Assembly: GCA_033819885.1 (NCBI GenBank)
Contig: JAQYUZ010000009.1
Location: 1-64,000, forward strand
Source: Microbotryomycetes sp. JL201
Taxonomy: Eukaryota; Basidiomycota; Microbotryomycetes
Reading direction: 5' to 3'
Length of the DNA stretch: 64,000 bases
The notes under the pieces are model-generated. The model ran no database searches and was not told where the DNA came from. It saw nothing but the letters and a program-made list of their open reading frames with translations. Positions 3,084-44,654 of this stretch are shown here, one piece after another. The stretch's first letter is position 1. Each line of letters begins with the position of its first letter. Both the position numbers and the translations under genes were made by a program.

Positions 3084-5138
3084 TTACGTTGTTCGATCTC
3101 GGGTGCCAACCTCACTGTCCCGTTTCCGCTGCTCAGCTTTGGCCCGCTCCTTCGCTTCTCGTGACAGCTTCCGTTCAAGCTTTTGCTTGTACGCATCAAA
3201 GGGATCCCCAAAAACGGCGACATCCCGTATATGAATCTCCTTCAAGGGTCGATCCGTCGCTGTGTCGCACGGAACCCTCTCGATCTTGCCGAGCACATCG
3301 TCTCCTCCCACGAGTCGTCCAAACACCGTGTGCTTGCCGTCTAGATGCGGCGTAGGCCGCAGGGTGAGGAAAAATTGCGACCCATTCGTGTTCGGGCCGG
3401 AGTTTGCCATTGACAAGACGCCCCGCTCGTTATGTTTCACTGCAGCAAGCGTGTGAGGGGGCGTCGAAGTAGACCAACATCCAGCAAGACGTACAGGCGG
3501 TCCTCTGATGGAACTCGTCCTCGAATGGCTTCCCCCAGTAGCTCTGCCCGCCTCGCCCTGTTCCAGTTGGATCACCACCTTGAATCATGAAGCCGGGAAT
3601 CAGTCTATGGAATATCGTATCCTTGTATTTGCCCTCTTTTGCAAGCTGTCATTGAACGTTGCCAAGGTCAGTGGTGGGTTGAGGCAGCGGGCCGAAGTCG
3701 TGGGGTGGACATGCCTGCAAAAAGTTGTAACATGTGCGAGGTGCTCGATCGCAGTGCAGCTCGAGATTCAGATTGCCGAAATTTGTGACCTGTCGGACCG
3801 TGAAGAAAGCGCAGAGTGTTGGACGAGGCAATCAGCGTGCTGTAAAAGCTCTTACGGGCCAAAAGCACTCTTACCAATCTCGCGTAGCCCTTTTCACCTT
3901 TTTCTCGCACCGCCTCATACATGAGATCCTCTTCGTGCCACAACGCGTTTTCCGTCTTGGTCTCGATCGGCGCAGACGTGCTGGTCAAACTTGCTCCTGC
4001 TCGACCAGTCGACACCACAGAAAGATTATAAGGAGATGAAGCATTGCTGACATAGGCGCCAAGCTTCTTGACCGGTCCTTTCGTCGTTGTTGTGGCGTCC
4101 GAGTTCTTCTGTGTCTCCTTTGCCTTTGTCTGCGAGCTTGATGATGGCAAGCCATCCGGATCTACGGAATATGGATGTGATCAATCTAAAAGACCCTTCG
4201 CGACGCCAGAGACGACCGCAGGTACTGACCAAATTTAATCTTTCTCTGAACATAATCAAACTTTGATACTGCAAGCGTCCTTTAGGTTCAGCCTCTCCAT
4301 ATCGTACTTTGTGATGCTCACAATCGCGTGCTTCCAGGTGAAGAGGATCTTGAAGTGTGATGATGTCTGCTCGTTTGAACGGCTCGTCGGACACTAGATC
4401 GTGCCAATGGTTTGCCTTAATGTTCAAACGATCAACAGTGTCTCTGGAAAAAACGTTGCCAGTGGTCTTGATGGCCACAATGTGCGAATGTTCATTGAAG
4501 ACTTTGAAAGTGACGGGGTCATGATACGTCTAACAAAGCCGCGTCAAAAACACGAAGGAGACTTTGTAAGCGAGCAGAGCACAGAGAGAGCAACAGAAAC
4601 GTGCGACGATGCCCATCTCTGAGAGACGCACCCCTTCATTGTTGCGTGCAAAGTTGAGCGTGATCAAATCGCCTGCGCCGAGCGCTTGTCCCGTGGCCGG
4701 ATCTTTGCCGTGTTGACGCAGGTACGGTATAATCGACAAGAGATCGTACGTGGTTCCGTTAGCGGTGCAGACTGGATTCTCGCAAGGCTTGAGTGTCAAC
4801 GCGCAACTGCGGTGGCAACGAGTTATTTTCAGGCGCCGTCGCTAGGGAAATGGGTTCCACGACGACGAACCAGTCGAAAGGGAGGCGAGCAAAATGCTGC
4901 GCCTTTTTTCGTGCGCCGGCAGATGATGCGCTATGCTGTCCGAGCTCGCCGCTGTGCTCGCTCTACGTAAGCATCGTTAGCGATTCGGGTCGTCGTTTTA
5001 CGTGGAGGACATGACTCGCATGAGTAATATAAAGTTTGTCTAGCGTGTACACGAGCCGTAGTGTGATCTGCCAAGTCAGCAGGATGTCGGTGACGGACAG
5101 AGCAATTCAACAGGCAACGCACCTGACCCGTGACCCAT
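3084..5138 (-). CDS. PPIL2: PPIL2-type U-box cyclophilin (peptidyl-prolyl isomerase)
   Basis: The spliced product begins MGHGSDKLYITH and follows the PPIL2/Cyp8 family end to end. The N-terminal U-box has [21 protein letters not shown], then [20 protein letters not shown], then the conserved [20 protein letters not shown] and [15 protein letters not shown] blocks. A low-complexity linker rich in S, T and K leads to a C-terminal cyclophilin domain with [19 protein letters not shown], then [18 protein letters not shown] and [19 protein letters not shown]2 proteins are nuclear, spliceosome-associated and may act as ubiquitin ligases through the U-box; isomerase activity is weak in some members. 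At least six introns are needed. The first coding exon is only 16 nt (5138-5123), followed by an intron ending in CTAG. A second intron with a GCTAAC branch site removes the segment after residues THASHVLH. Confidence 0.92.
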
Positions 5139-26590: not shown

Positions 26591-27139
26591 TGACGTTGTC
26601 ACGGCGACAAGAGTGCACCACACACACTTTCGAGACGGGGGGCGAGGCGCGGCGCTTGATGCGCGCGGCCAGTCTCGAAAGACCCGATCGGGGGGCTGCG
26701 GCTCGGGGCTCGAGCACCGCGACGCCCAGCGGCCGGGCTCGCTTCGCCCTCGTCTGAACTTTTTCGTCCCGGCCAACTGTAAGCGTCTCTGCCGAGCAAG
26801 TCACATCACAGACCCTTCACGGATCGACGTACCAGCGCGCATGGGGTGATCGAGCTGCAGCGTCGGGCAGGCCAGCGACAGAATCGAAATTTGCCAGCAG
26901 TCGTGCACGGCAGCGCACGCGCGCCATTTAGACACGACGTTCGACTGTTTGTTGTTACCATGCTGAAAGCATCGGCAAAGTGGGCGCCAGAGGACATGCG
27001 CGCTGCCATCGAGTGTACAAGCACCATCTGGTTCTCGCGATTTTCATCGTCACCATCGTCGCTTGCATACCAATCATACACGCTCACCAAAATGAGGAAA
27101 CATAGGCGCTGACAAAGTACCTTGCTGCATGCGCAGGTC
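26591..27139. promoter_or_regulatory. Bidirectional promoter, PCF11 / ribosomal protein L9
   Basis: The 549 bases between the two start codons hold no supported gene. They should contain promoters for both genes. The sequence CATGCGCAG just before the L9 ATG looks like a 3' splice site, suggesting a 5'-UTR intron as is common in fungal ribosomal protein genes. No TATA box was convincing. Confidence 0.45.
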
Positions 27140-28017
27140 ATGAAGCAGATCTACAAGGAAGAGGAGTTCGAGGTTCCGTGAGTGCTGCAGCTCTCCGGCG
27201 GCTTGTCATGGCGCTTACACCTGACTCGGTGTACAGGGAGGGCGTCACGGTTGCCGTTAAGGCCCGTGTCATCACTGTTACCGGCCCGCGCGGCACTCTC
27301 CAGAAGGTTCGTCCGCCTCTGTGCTTCACACCAATCAGGCAAACCAAGTTCTGACCTGTTGCCCTCGCCCATCCAATACTTGCTCCATCTCACGGTTCTC
27401 TTGCACCTGTCACCGCATTGCAACCCCCTCCTTGATGCGCTTCTCGGATCACCTCGGTTTAGAACGCGCAACATGCCAACATGTCCATCCGCGTGCTCGC
27501 TCCCGCCGCCAACGCCCCCAAGCAGGTTTCTAAGGTCCGATTGGTTGTCTGGCACGGTGGCCGCAAGCATCTTGCGACGTTGCGCACGATTCGCTCTCTG
27601 ATCGAGAACATGATCAAGGGTGTGCGCTACGGCTTCTTGTACAAGATGCGATTGGTCTACGCCCATTTCCCCATCAACGTCATCATCAATGATGCCAAGG
27701 ACGCAGTCGAAATCCGCAATTTCTTGGGCGAGAAGAACGTCCGACACGTTCCTATGCTCGAGGGTGTCACCATCTCCGAGTCAAAGAATGTCAAGGTGCG
27801 CCCGCAAGCAAGCCGTGCAAACTGAGCTGCTTCTGACTCCCTCTGTCACGAGCAGGATGAGATCGCTTTGGAGGGCAACGACGTCGAGAACGTTTCGCAA
27901 TCTGCTGCTTCCATTCACGGCGCTTGCCTCGTCCGAAACAAGGATATCCGAAAGTTCCTCGATGGTGTCTACGTTTCGGAAAAGACGACTGTTGTCGAGC
28001 CTGAGGAGGAGGCTTAA
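27140..28017 (+). CDS. RPL9: 60S ribosomal protein L9 (uL6)
   Basis: The spliced protein starts [13 protein letters not shown], then [95 protein letters not shown], then [20 protein letters not shown] and [20 protein letters not shown] before the stop. This matches yeast Rpl9 throughout and has the expected length (about 190 residues). The protein sits near the GTPase-associated centre of the large subunit. Three introns are inferred: after FEVP, after LQK (the longest, about 150 nt, ending GGTTTAG) and after KNVK. Codon choice leans to C-ending codons, as expected for a highly expressed gene. It is convergent with VPS20. Confidence 0.96.
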
Positions 28018-28288: not shown

Positions 28289-29365
28289 TCATGCTGGAAC
28301 CATTTGGCGCTCGCGCGCGACTGGCCGCCTTTCGGCTGCAGGCTGGACTGCTTGTTGCTCGCTTTCGGGCACAGTCGCCTCCTTTTGCGGCAAGGTGTTG
28401 GTGGGAACGCTGGGCATGTTGACCTGTGCGACCTCAGATGCGGATCAGTATGCAAAAGTAGCGGAACTGAGGGCGAGGACGAACCTGTTCAGCCTGCAAG
28501 AATGCCAATTGCTCGAGGACATCTTCTTCGTCCGCTGCAGACATTGTGCTCGAGAGCATCGCGCTGACCTCCTGCAGAGAGGAAAGTCGGACAGCGTCAG
28601 CAAAAGTCATATCGGCTTGGAACGCGCTCGCCGCCCCATGCACAGCTTGAGCGAGCTGGCAACACGTCACGTACTTGCTGGTACGCGACCCCTTCGGCCG
28701 TGTCACTCATGAGCTGCTCTATTTTTGCGAGGTCCATCTCTGCATTGAGCTGTTTGAGGACTTGACTGCCCTGCTGCAAGCCAAATACCACGTCTTTTTC
28801 GACCAGCGAGAATTCAATAGAAGACACCTGCCAAGTCATCGAACGTCCCAGAAGCCTCCCATCAGCGATGCACAAGCTTGGTCTCGTCCAGGCGTGACAA
28901 ACGCTCACAAGTTTCTGGAGCGTCTCGAGCTGTTTGTCTGTTTGCTCCAGCAGGTTCTCCTGATACTTGCGCTGCCGCAGTGCGATCAAAGCACGCTGTT
29001 TGTTACCTGCCGCCAAAGCTTGCTTGGCGATCTCTCGCTCTCGTGTCAGGACGGCATCGATCTGGATCAAGCCCAAGGCATGCGTTCAGGTCGAGCGAAA
29101 GTTAGGAATAGCTGTACCTGTAGTGTTCCTCACACGTTTTTGGTACTGCCGAAGTTTGTCGCGCTGCAATTTCAGACTGCAAGCAGGCACGAGAGGCGTT
29201 GAGCTGGAAGCGATGGGCGGCGTCAGGCAGTGCGGTCTCGGCGCTCACTCGAGGATGGCTCTGTCCTGCGCAGTGACCTTGACCGAGCTTGATGACTGTC
29301 CCACTGTGTGCGTGTCGACGATCAGGCACGTGTTTGCGCGGTGAGCTTGGGCCCCCCCACTTACT
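28289..29365 (-). CDS. VPS20: ESCRT-III subunit Vps20/CHMP6
   Basis: The spliced protein begins MGQSSSSVKVTAQDRAIL, then DLKLQRDKLRQYQKR, LTREREIAKQALAAGNKQRA, LIALRQRKYQENLLEQTDKQ, SIEFSLVEKDVVFGLQQGSQ, VLKQLNAEMDLAKIEQLMSD and EVSAMLSSTMSAADEEDVLE, ending with a short charged tail (VARERQMVPA). Vps20 is N-myristoylated and starts ESCRT-III filament assembly on endosomes by linking ESCRT-II to Snf7. The MGxxxS start fits the myristoylation consensus. The start codon itself is split: the A is the last base of exon 1 (29365, donor GTAAGT) and TG begins exon 2 (29303, acceptor CACACAG). No other ATG precedes the conserved region in frame. The basic first helix and acidic C-terminal half are typical ESCRT-III features. 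Confidence 0.93.
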
Positions 29366-29605
29366 CGCGAATCAGGCGCGGCAACGGACCGCTAGATCGT
29401 AGCGCTTTCGTTCAAGCAGCGGCCGCTTTCTATGTTTGCCAACGGGCGAGCTCGAGTGCGCGAGGTCGGGAGACGAGTGAGCGGGAGTGGTGGATGACGA
29501 CAAACGAACGCAGCCGTGCGCGCGCGCGCTGCCTCGCCGCGCCGCGCCCCGGCCCCTTTCAGACCCGCACCAACACGATCACGGGCCGAGTATCGGCACC
29601 CGTCG
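29366..29605. promoter_or_regulatory. Bidirectional promoter and leaders, VPS20 / ARFRP1
   Basis: A GC-rich stretch of 240 bases separates the two first exons. Both leaders must end in a coding A followed by an intron. A run of CGCG and CCGCGCC repeats lies near 29520-29555. No TATA-like sequence was seen. Confidence 0.45.
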
Positions 29606-30840
29606 AGTGAGTTCTTCTCTGTCAAGCGTTCAAGCGGTGCGTACATGTCCGGCTGACAGATCTGCCGTCCGCGTCCGCCTTTGTGCGCGCGTCTGCCAGT
29701 GTATCGGCTGATCACAGGCTTCATCAGCCATGTTACGCAAAAAGAAGAGGTCAGAATGTGCTCACATGGATCGATCAATACTTCGAGGCGCTGACCCTTC
29801 GCGCGCATCCACCGTCTATCCACATTCGGCGACAGTTCTCTGTCTTGATCATGGGCCTTGACAACGCCGGCAAGACAACCTTTCTTGGTGCGCCAGACTC
29901 TCACCGACATTTGTTGCCACACTCTGGCTGACTCCAGGCTCACGTGACCAGAACGCATCAAGAGCACGTTCAACGACTCGCCCGAGGTCGATCCCGCCAC
30001 CATTGCTCCGACGATTGGACAGAACAGTCAGTCCCGCTGGACAAGATGCCGCCTTGAGACAGACTTTTGTTCATGTTTTCGCTCGCACAGTTGGCAGAAT
30101 CACCTTGTCCTCGTCTGTACTTCAATTCTGGGACCTTGGAGGTCAGTCTCGTCCTGCTGTTCGGGCTCTGTCAGAGCTCGCACTGACAACATGGCTCAGG
30201 TCAAAGGGATATTCGATCAATATGGCCCAAGTACTACTCCGAGTGTCACGCCGTCTGCTTTGTCATTGACTCGACCGACAAAGATCGAATCGAAGAATGT
30301 TGGAAAGTGTTTGGTAAGCGCGTGAAACGGGTGCAAAGGGAAAAGCTTACGGAGGACGGCTGCCATTGCAAAGAAGACAAGAGTATTGGCTCGTCTGTAC
30401 ATGGCTTGCTGACTGGCGCATTCGTACGTAGAATCAGTCGTAACAGATCATCGAGTCGACGGCGTACCGACGCTCGTTTTGGCCAATAAGCAAGATGCTG
30501 AGGGCGCCATGGCTGTCGAAGACATCAAGCAAGTTTTCAATACGCTGATTGTCGGAAAATTGAACGTGTCGGAAGGCGCTGTCATGCCCATTTCTGCGCT
30601 GCGAGGGTGAGTGGCGTGGCACTGCATCGGGCCCGCAGGATGAGCATCCGGGAAGAGAGAGATCTTTCCTGTCTGATTCCTTCGTGCTCTGCTCACAGCG
30701 ACGGAATTCGCGAAGCTGTGCAGTGGTTGTTTGTCAGAGTCCAAAAGTGGGTGTGCCTGGGCTGATCAGACAGATGCAGCAAGGTCCAGAGCAGACTGAC
30801 ATGCCATTCACACAGCTCTCGCAAGGAAGCTTTACGATGA
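29606..30840 (+). CDS. ARL3: ARFRP1/Arl3-type small GTPase
   Basis: An Arf-family GTPase of the ARFRP1 (yeast Arl3) group that works at the trans-Golgi upstream of Arl1 and golgins. The spliced start is MYRLITGFISHVTQKEE, matching the family start MYxLLSG, and lacks the Gly2 of true Arfs. Motifs are FSVLIMGLDNAGKTTFLE (P-loop), TIAPTIGQN (switch I), VLQFWDLGGQ (WDLGGQ, switch II), then YYSECHAVCFVIDSTDKDRI, VLANKQDAEGAM (NKQD), MPISALRGDGIREAV and a short end VQNSRKEALR. The start codon is split: A at 29606 before GTGAGT, TG at 29700 after CTGCCAG. At least seven introns are needed. The last one (to CACACAG) restores the VQNSR ending, which otherwise would terminate early. Confidence 0.92.
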
Positions 30841-41300: not shown

Positions 41301-41401
41301 GCCTTCGCCTGCGTCGGAAGCACTGTCAAGTACTGCGTCATCAGCTCACGCACAATGTCATTCAGTATCCGCTCCGCGGTGACGCACGTTGGCGAGCTCA
41401 T
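38349..41401 (-). CDS. MRE11: Mre11 double-strand break repair nuclease
   Basis: Mre11 is the nuclease of the MRN/MRX complex that resects and tethers DNA ends. The start MSSPT, then [20 protein letters not shown] leads into [16 protein letters not shown] (motif DxH), [33 protein letters not shown] (GDLFH), [15 protein letters not shown] (GNHD), [19 protein letters not shown] (GHEH), [20 protein letters not shown] and [19 protein letters not shown]. The C-terminal part is lysine/serine/aspartate-rich ([20 protein letters not shown]) and ends [12 protein letters not shown], as in other Mre11 tails. The first coding exon is 14 nt. The next intron (donor GTGCGTC at 41387) is fixed by reading frame, and another begins GTCAGCTC inside DDCVK|ILLATD. 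At least nine introns interrupt the gene. All five phosphoesterase motifs read intact. Confidence 0.92.
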
Positions 41402-41723
41402 CTTGGTCCGGTCACTGCTAAAAAGCTCGACGACGATACAAACGCTCACGCACCGCCTTCAAAGGCACTATTTAATGCGAGAAACGGAGCCTGATGACTC
41501 GGCAGGGTCTAGCCCTGTTAGCTCGACACGGTGCGAGCTCAAAAGTCAGCTGGTCGCGTCGCCACGCGTGACTGCTTGACGTGTCAACTCAAAATTCGTG
41601 GTTGACTCAGGCACTGTCATGCATGTCTCAAGGCTGTGCCGTGCTCAAACGGGCCAATTTCAACTTTCAATCAAGAAATGGTGGTTGACTGAACCGCCTG
41701 CCGTCATGTCATTGTCTACGTGG
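41402..41723. promoter_or_regulatory. Intergenic, MRE11 promoter side
   Basis: Both flanking genes are on the minus strand, so these 322 bases carry the MRE11 promoter and EMC7 3' end. An AT-rich patch (CACTATTTAATG, about 41467) is the nearest TATA-like sequence. Nothing else recognised. Confidence 0.35.
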
Positions 41724-42721
41724 CTACCGCCTCTTTCCCTTTCTAGACTTTGTCGGCTCACTCCCACCTGTGCTGACCGCGCTTGACGAGCCCTGCGCAG
41801 GCCCCTCTTGAGAAGGCAAAAGCTTGGAGAACTCGAGGTTTGAAAACGCCTTAACAAACATATTGGTCAGTCTAGCTGTGGTGAGCTAAGCACAGAGACA
41901 TCGGCGACACGTACAGCGAGCTTCGAATGCATGTCGGCCTGGTTTTGCTGCACTTCTTGCACTAACTCTGGGTCGAGCATCTCGAGCAATCTTGGCAGGA
42001 GTACGACACTGATAGCAGCGATGGCCAGAAGCAGAAACATTGGGTTTGACTTGAAGATGGCTACCGGGTTAAGGCCCTGCTTGAAGCTTGAATAGAGGAT
42101 TGGACCCAGCGGTTGGACGTCTAACCAAGTGGCGAGATGTCAGATGCGCGTTCTTCACTGAATCTTGTTTCAATACAAGGCGAAACGCACTTAAAGTGGC
42201 ACCGAGGAACGTGCCAGGCACATCTCCGTGGCCGAGGACATGTAGGCGAGCCTTGACCTGGTTTTGTTCGTCAACGGTAACCGCGTACGTCTGCGGCAGG
42301 CATTGAGGGTCAGGACAGGCCTTGTAGGCAGAAAGTGATTGATTGACGTGCATGGAACCTGAGTCTGTTAGACTTGATGCTCACAACGTAATCGCCCTTA
42401 GCGACAGCCTCAAAGTCCACTGCTCCAGATAAGGGTATGTTGGCCCGTTCGACAACCTGTGTGCCTTTCCGATGAGTCTACCATGATAGTGCACGCTGCA
42501 TGTCTAATCGGCCTCACGTCGTTAGATGACAATTGCACGAAAGCGGTTGGCTCGAGCGCACGGGTCGTGTTGCTCTGCAGCCGGATGCTGACAGTCGCCG
42601 CTTGACATGCACCAGCTAGAAGTATCAGACAAGCCACCAGAGCATGTCTTGCGCTGTAATGAAGCCGTTGAATCAGCTCATAAGCACGGAATGGGAGGCC
42701 CTGATTCTTGTACCAGACCAT
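41724..42721 (-). CDS. EMC7: ER membrane complex subunit 7
   Basis: EMC7 is a single-pass subunit of the ER membrane protein insertase. The spliced start MVCARHALVACLILLAGACQ is a clean signal peptide. It requires an 8-nt first coding exon (42721-42714) and an intron from GTACAAG to TTACAG. The lumenal beta-domain has IRLQSNTTRALEPTAFVQL, FHVNQSLSAYKACPDPQ and YAVTVDEQNQVKARLHVLG. The family core follows: GPILYSSFKQGLNPVAIFKS, then the membrane helix NPMFLLLAIAAISVVLLPRL and LEMLDPELVQEVQQNQADMH. The cytosolic tail ends SEPTKSRKGKRR. If the first intron is not removed, a longer start at 42763 is possible but hides the signal peptide. ZPR1 is divergent (174 bp). Confidence 0.88.
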
Positions 42722-42895
42722 GACGCGAGATGTAGGTGCCCCTCGAGTCCCGCTCAAATTCAATGTAACTAGATGTCTTGACGGAGTGCCTGACTGAGCG
42801 TGCCGAGGTGCCTGACGTAATGCCGATTGACCAGAGCCGAAGACGAGTGAAAGCGGGCGACCGCTCTCGCCTATTTCGCCTCGCGCATCCCCGAC

Positions 42896-44654
42896 ATGAG
42901 CTCAACGCAAAACGATCCAAATTGGAGGCCGATTGGAGAAGCTGTCGGCGGCGGTGACTTGCCAGGTCAGTGATTGCGAGCCATCGAGACTTTTCAAACA
43001 TGCCGCCTCCGAGCCGCGCGTGCAACCATATCCACGTTCAGCTTGACTAACGATGCTGACTGGCGGTTTGATACTCAGTTGAGCAAGTCGAGTCCCTGTG
43101 CATGCGATGCCACGAGCAGGTGGGGCGCGCACGAAACTGGCGACCAATGCGACGCTGTAGCTGATCCGCCGCCCCCTTGTCCTCGTTGTCTCTACCAGGG
43201 TATGACTCGCATGCTTCTCACCGTAATCCCTTATTTCCGCGAAGTCATCATCGTTCACTTCAAGTGCGAGCATTGCGGTACGCCACTCGCTTACGCTGTA
43301 ACCTCGTGTTCATGCGAACTGAAGTTCGATGTACACAGGCTTTGAGAATAACGACATTCAATCTGCGGGTCAGATTCAGACAAGCGGCGCAATCTATACC
43401 GTTAAAGTGACCGACCGCTCAGACTTGAATCGACAAATGGTCAAGTCTGAGCATTGCATCGTTACCGTCCCGGAATATGCACTGCAGATACCTGCAGGAC
43501 GTGGGCAGTTTACGACGATCGAAGGCATCATCTCCGACACAATTCGTGACCTTAGCCAGGACCAGCCGGCGAGAAAGGAGCAACACCCTGAAATTCACGA
43601 TAAGATCCAAGAACTGATCGACAAGCTTAAGCCAATTGTCGACGACGATAGCGGTGAAAAGATGCCTGTATTCACGATCAAGCTGGACGATCCATCTGGC
43701 AATTCGTTCATTGAGACAGAGGGTGGCCTGTCGGACCCAAAGTGGAGCAAAATGGAATACGTCCGCGACGCTGCACAAAACGAGGCACTCGGATTGGCAC
43801 CAGGAGAGGTTGAGACGAGTCATTACCCCGAGGAAGTCATGTCGTTCCCCGGCACTTGCTCGCTTTGCGGCAGCACTCTCGACACACTAATGAAAAAGGT
43901 CACGATTCCGCATTTCAAGGTAAGGCATACTCGAAGGATGTTGGGACTGCCCCGCTGATTGTTCGTGCTGTGTAGGATATAATCCTTATGTCCACCAATT
44001 GCCATGATTGTGGTTACCGTGACACAGAAGTCAAGTCGGGCGGCGCAACGGCGCTGCAAGGGCGAAAAATCACACTCAAGGTCGAAGACTCTGACGATCT
44101 CAGTCGAGACATTCTCAAGGTGCGATGCAGTCCGTCTTGAATAGTAACGAAGCTTGCCTGACCACAATGCCTCTGTTTAGTCCGACACGGCCGGCATGGA
44201 AATTCCAGAGATTGGACTCGAACTAAACCCAGGCACGCTTGGTGGACGGTTCACAACGCTTGAAGGTCTGCTCAACCAAGTGTACGAAGAGCTCGACGAA
44301 AAGGTATTTGCCCATGGCGATTCAGCACTGCCTGGAGCTACCGACAGTATGGCACTCTTCTTGGAGAAGCTCAAGCAGGTGCGTGTTCCTATGCGGTCTG
44401 ATATGACCAGACATTCCTGTCACGGTTGAGCGCTGACGTTTTCGCGGCTTGGCGTTGCTCAGGTTATGACTGTGGCGATTCCTTTCACCGTCGTGCTCGA
44501 CGACCCGCTCTCGAACTCTTACATTCAGAATTTGTACGCGCCGGACGACGACCCTAACATGACTGTCGAGATCTACGATCGCACGCACGAGCAAAACGAC
44601 GAGCTCGGCCTCAACGACATGAATACCGACAGCTATGAGCAGACACAGGCGTGA
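42896..44654 (+). CDS. ZPR1: Zpr1 zinc-finger protein
   Basis: Zpr1 is a conserved chaperone for eEF1A folding. Two duplicated ZPR1 modules are present. The first has a C4 finger (SLCMRCHEQ, then FKCEHCG) and the phrase [20 protein letters not shown]. The second has [20 protein letters not shown], then [20 protein letters not shown]. Each is followed by the A/B domains ([40 protein letters not shown]; and [40 protein letters not shown]). The end is [20 protein letters not shown] and [19 protein letters not shown]. The start at 42896 is [20 protein letters not shown]. About five introns are present. The next gene starts 46 bp after the stop on the same strand. Confidence 0.95.

Follow-up and report, generated by a model that had tools for sequence, protein, structure and literature searches.

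In the yeast Yarrowia lipolytica, 47 of 6,449 genes (951 of them intron-containing) have a start codon of the form A|TG, in which the first coding exon is the A of the initiation codon alone; the gene models of that study were revised by cDNA sequencing (PMC2911113). A 2026 survey of Yarrowia counts 42 introns with a donor after one of the three start-codon bases and reports that splicing efficiency peaks near the start codon and that such genes are highly and steadily expressed (PMC13309789). Nielsen and Wernersson (2006) called introns disrupting the start codon 'relatively rare'; the introns that they describe also sit at start codons, of fungal and other eukaryotic genes, but follow a complete ATG in phase 0 (PMC1626468). 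Here we analyse 64,000 nucleotides of the basidiomycete Microbotryomycetes sp. JL201 (assembly GCA_033819885.1, contig JAQYUZ010000009.1, positions 1 to 64,000, forward strand; hereafter the window). On the strength of its sequence, the start codon of an ARFRP1/Arl3p-type gene is very likely cut A|TG by an ordinary phase 1 spliceosomal intron, and the same layout occurs in its divergent VPS20/CHMP6-type neighbour, there most likely by coincidence. An earlier note on this DNA had called the feature rare, which agrees with the wording of Nielsen and Wernersson but not with the number of A|TG genes in Yarrowia. The ARFRP1 split start is probably real and ordinary, of a kind already reported for dozens of yeast genes, and so it is not new. 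Set against Yarrowia, the window is intron-dense (179 introns in 28 gene models); the 2026 survey differs in pooling the A, T and G positions, in species and in its all-intron median of 196 nt.

Exon 1 of the ARFRP1-type gene ends on the + strand with the A of the start codon at 29606 (CGA|GTGAGT), the remainder of the exon being 5′ leader. Intron 1 (29607-29699, 93 nt) has a canonical donor, GTGAGT at 29607-29612, directly after this A and an acceptor, CTGCCAG at 29693-29699, directly before the TG at 29700-29701. Its removal gives ATG TAT CGG CTG ATC ACA GGC, or MYRLITG, and both this product and every coordinate given for the junction in the earlier note proved right. Exon 2 (29700-29749) holds the TG and codons 2-17 (YRLITGFISHVTQKEE), which form the N-terminal helix, and ends between codons, after codon 17. 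Intron 2 (29750-29835, 86 nt, GTCAGA...GACAG) follows, and its removal joins ...VTQKEE to FSVLIMGLDNAGKTTFL, the spliced product being MYRLITGFISHVTQKEE-FSVLIMGLDNAGKTTFL. The gene finder, splice scoring and the Pfam Arf match place the remaining exons at 29836-29887, 29952-30026, 30091-30141, 30200-30313, 30432-30606, 30699-30746 and 30816-30840, the last being the least certain. Scored with a matrix from 136 self-trained introns (median donor 5.3, median acceptor 3.76), the donor of intron 1 is strong, at about 6.2 (6.18-6.25). The intron also contains a strong branch-like GGCTGAC whose A (29656) lies 43 nt from the acceptor end; the corresponding distance for the branch-like CGCTGAC of intron 2 is 41 nt.

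The intron sits after the first base of the ATG, and therefore the AUG would exist in spliced RNA only. Exon 1 would contribute the leader and the A, and exon 2 the TG with the rest of a 17-residue N-terminal targeting helix. The single ATG inside intron 1, at 29645, opens a 3-residue open reading frame (ORF); the unspliced gene frame has a stop at 29654 and then no ATG before YRLITG. 3′ of the A, unspliced RNA would thus provide short ORFs, followed by an internal Met at 29851 that leaves out the helix. We infer the splice, and initiation at the joined AUG, from these signals.

The earlier note's call of an Arf-like gene is borne out by the spliced protein, which matches Pfam Arf (PF00025) with E 1.3e-43 (192-residue query) and, in the PDB, Arf/Arl chains with E values starting at 1.8e-30 (best 60 of 419 matches). 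For several full-length chains the alignments have no offset near the N-terminus and run from query 9-190 to 9-180 of 5a1u, from 10-190 to 10-180 of 2k5u and from 5-184 to 5-174 of 1z6x, and a 1mr3 chain also aligns 9 to 9; many other rows among the best 60 of 419 are truncated constructs or shifted alignments. As several Arf chains align without offset, the joined Met falls about at Arf Met1. We assign the gene to ARFRP1/Arl3p rather than to another Arf-like family by features that we take to be diagnostic, namely KYYxECH, GVPxLVLANKQD and an insert that follows the P-loop helix; the PDB rows named 'ADP-ribosylation factor-like protein 3' are presumably human-type ARL3, a different protein from Arl3p. 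Given the split start, MYRLITG carries Tyr at position 2 and not the Gly2 of myristoylated Arfs, and the window protein resembles human ARFRP1 and Arl3p in being an Arf-like GTPase with Tyr2 and a 17-residue N-terminal helix. According to work on human ARFRP1, residues 1-17 fused to GFP suffice for Golgi localisation and the Y2A mutation blocks Sys1 binding and Golgi localisation (PMC7864062); a Y2P mutant is reported to be mostly cytoplasmic (PMC5408665). All of residues 1-17 in the window protein come from exon 2, except for the A of codon 1. The amphipathic moment is 0.42 over residues 2-17 (reached by 8.8% of shuffles) and 0.55 over residues 2-13 (1.1%), which gives weak support for the helix. 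By analogy, the Met-Tyr start would be NatC-acetylated like that of the human protein.

The divergent neighbour on the minus strand has the same layout, as the earlier note had claimed. Splice scoring places the A of its start codon at 29365, the last base of exon 1, and a 61-nt intron 1 at 29304-29364; the split A29365|GTAAGT...CACACAG|TG29303 gives MGQSSSSVKVTAQDRAIL, with 240 nt between the two As. The remaining exons, from scoring and the Pfam Snf7 match, are 29303-29249, 29176-29134, 29061-28909, 28827-28675, 28571-28485 and 28423-28289. The donor scores 5.6, or 5.4 after retraining, against the median of 5.3, and the start context has G at -3. The protein matches Pfam Snf7 (PF03357) with E 1.9e-33. 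A 39-residue Vps20 fragment (3htu_B) matches with E 3.1e-08 and SNF7 chains match better (best 1.6e-12); that the gene is VPS20 rather than SNF7 is in part our assumption. Given the split start, the protein begins MGQSSSS, thus with Met-Gly. Gly2 is the myristoylation site of CHMP6 (PMC8973635), and by analogy the window protein would be N-myristoylated like the human one. Both one-intron routes found into the VPS20 acceptor are split starts, and no contiguous route into it was found. This strand lacks an ATG for 565 nt, from 29646 down to 29081, across the leader, intron 1 and the early exons; of the window's 1,978 ATG gaps just one is longer, and a first-order Markov model predicts 0.13 gaps of this kind per strand. 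The longest, 597 nt, lies on the + strand.

Both strands of the window together hold 445 AG|TG sites, 7 of which have an A-ending donor scoring at least 5.4 located 50-150 nt upstream; by the same donor criterion the share for sampled positions in general is 2.6%. At a donor cut-off of 5.0, 15 of the 445 sites qualify. Two AG|TG sites with such donors sit exactly at the wanted start codons of adjoining genes, and by these counts the donor signals at both start codons are confirmed as more than would be expected by chance. Three of the 15 also pass an acceptor score of 3.0 and a branch score of 4.5, namely 29303 (VPS20), 35047 and 16798, and ARFRP1 narrowly fails the acceptor cut-off (2.96). 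Apart from the two start codons, pairs that score highly for acceptor and branch correspond in part to introns within gene models: 34955/35047 and 48567/48508 according to the exon lists and 16867/16798 according to exon lengths.

The gene models come from an ab initio finder that treats both strands jointly and gave 27, 26 and 28 models over its runs; they are unverified and some are fused. Two earlier versions were discarded for fusing genes, and in the fused models a thiolase is presumably joined to a phosphoribosyltransferase, a PCF11-like gene to an SMN-like one and an EMC7-like gene to MRE11. The 28 models hold their 179 introns in 36,321 coding nt, with 4 introns in the 420 nt that make up their first 15 coding nt. 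At two positions per ATG, this intron density predicts 0.28-0.53 split starts, and at least two would turn up with a probability of 3-10%. At the Yarrowia rate per gene (47 of 6,449) or per intron-containing gene (47 of 951), the 27 intron-containing models would have 0.2 or 1.3 split starts, and at least two with a probability of 1.7% or 39%, respectively.

Several observations weigh against the split starts. When they were allowed, under four priors, the finder chose none (0 of 26 and 0 of 28 genes), and the summed score of the two split models is 73.3, compared with 76.9 for two contiguous ones. For VPS20 the contiguous model scores 47.8 against 40.4; it takes an acceptor lying 8 nt beyond that of the split (exon from 29295), along with upstream exons to 29646, and loses the Met-Gly. 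For ARFRP1 the best contiguous model, starting at ATG 29494 and entering at 29728, scores 33.4 against 32.9. The acceptor of the ARFRP1 intron, at about 3.0 (3.05), is below the median. Its spliced start context, GTCG-AUG-T, has T at -3 and G at -1, which occur in 1 and 3, respectively, of the 28 starts in the models (C at -1 in 23); these 28 include the finder's own ARFRP1 and VPS20 starts, which we judge to be wrong. None of the PDB alignments starts before residue 5, so residues 1-4 are left uncovered, no ARFRP1 or yeast Arl3p name occurs among the best 60 of 419 matches, and the agreement with the family N-terminus, which the earlier note had also claimed, is presumed with the help of the Tyr2 of the papers. 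The finder placed the ARFRP1 start at the P-loop edge and extended VPS20 5′ through the promoter into its neighbour's start. When the 28 models are ranked by split minus contiguous score, ARFRP1 comes first (-0.5) and VPS20 third (-6.4), the latter with a different, spurious split; two other models at -6.7, both fused, may also be split starts. The ARFRP1 split model does beat an internal start (32.9 against 29.1). Given that the finder favours contiguous starts, the case rests on protein conservation and N-terminal biology and not on composition.

The same biology bears on the other places at which ARFRP1 translation might begin. A search for one-intron routes into the acceptor at 29700, with donors scoring at least 1 within 250 nt, found four that create an ATG. 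Three are split starts yielding an identical protein, with donors after 29455 (4.25), 29476 (5.17) and 29606 (6.18), all CGA|GT; among donors scoring at least 4 between 29430 and 29660, 3 of 4 end in A, compared with 122 of 567 in the whole window. The fourth is a contiguous extension from the ATG at 29494 (donor score 3.79), which would give MTTNERSL-YRLITG via a 184-nt intron. It is very improbable that this ATG is the true start, whether in that form or in the longer one joined at 29728, although the latter is the finder's best contiguous model. With either form the alignment to several Arf chains would no longer be free of offset, and the Tyr at position 2, which human ARFRP1 needs (PMC7864062), would be lost. 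Moreover, the donor at 29516 is weaker than that at 29606 (3.8 against 6.2), its intron of 184 nt compares with a median of 68, and the form joined at 29728 lacks about residues 2-10 of the helix. Retention of intron 1 would also lead to MYRLITG if translation began at the in-frame near-cognate GTG (29699-29701), given that every AG|TG acceptor leaves a GTG behind and the ARFRP1 frame stays open after the stop at 29654. This we regard as extremely unlikely, as the ATG at 29645 would intercept scanning ribosomes, as would those at 29432 and 29494 in the case of a leader long enough to include them, and strong A-ending donors in both genes would be needed by coincidence. GUG is a poor eukaryotic start.

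The stretch between the two split starts (29366-29605, 240 nt, 68% GC) should hold both leaders and promoters; it contains no ATG on the VPS20 strand and two (29432 and 29494) on the ARFRP1 strand. The earlier note had proposed a link through this shared promoter, and one may imagine the two split starts as functionally coupled, with splicing of the first intron needed for, or co-regulated with, divergent transcription. Both do fall in one pair. The model has 27 neighbour pairs, 9 of them divergent, and at Yarrowia rates only 0.0005-0.02 double-split pairs would be expected among these 9. We nevertheless consider such coupling very unlikely: the two introns are dissimilar (local alignment score 10, where shuffled sequences average 12.6), no mechanism is visible within the 240 nt, and the genome presumably holds many divergent pairs, of which this one was picked after the fact. 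With dissimilar introns and a 3-10% likelihood of two split starts from intron density, the proposed link found no support, and two split starts in one divergent pair amount to a mild coincidence. The likeness of VPS20 would then stem from coincidence in an intron-dense, compact region. Start-codon splicing might instead be a licence common to the pair, with the ARFRP1 first exons that end at 29455, 29476 and 29606 converging on one protein, an idea that we hold to be very improbable. Its further suggestion, that two membrane-trafficking proteins that need an exact modification at residue 1 or 2 (NatC acetylation and N-myristoylation) for their function obtain their sole usable AUG by splicing, seems to us just as doubtful; beyond the pairing and the three A-ending donors nothing hints at it. 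A common origin of both introns, introner-like or by duplication, is unsupported by the same alignment. Against the finder's other introns, the ARFRP1 intron reaches a best score of 24 (mean null maximum 21.6, highest 28) and the VPS20 intron 20 (null mean 20.2), after one VPS20 row (score 104, a 94-nt intron) was dropped as the finder's own overlapping intron in the same gene. A scan of viral contigs for relatives gave four pattern matches and no relative.

Gene predictors that require a contiguous ATG would miss or wrongly extend genes with split starts. Correct starts matter here because the residues lost are the Golgi-targeting helix in ARFRP1 and the myristoylated Gly2 in VPS20. Unspliced RNA could not yield either protein, and there is no sign of regulation at this locus.

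Elsewhere in the window, first exons are very short or uncertain in three minus-strand models, at 4951-5138, 41388-42897 and 26776-26842, which we take to be cyclophilin-like, EMC7/MRE11-like and PCF11-like, respectively; these may hold further split starts. A gene at 27140-28017 on the + strand, presumably resembling ribosomal protein L9, starts at a contiguous ATG and is interrupted early, 38 coding nt in, by an intron.
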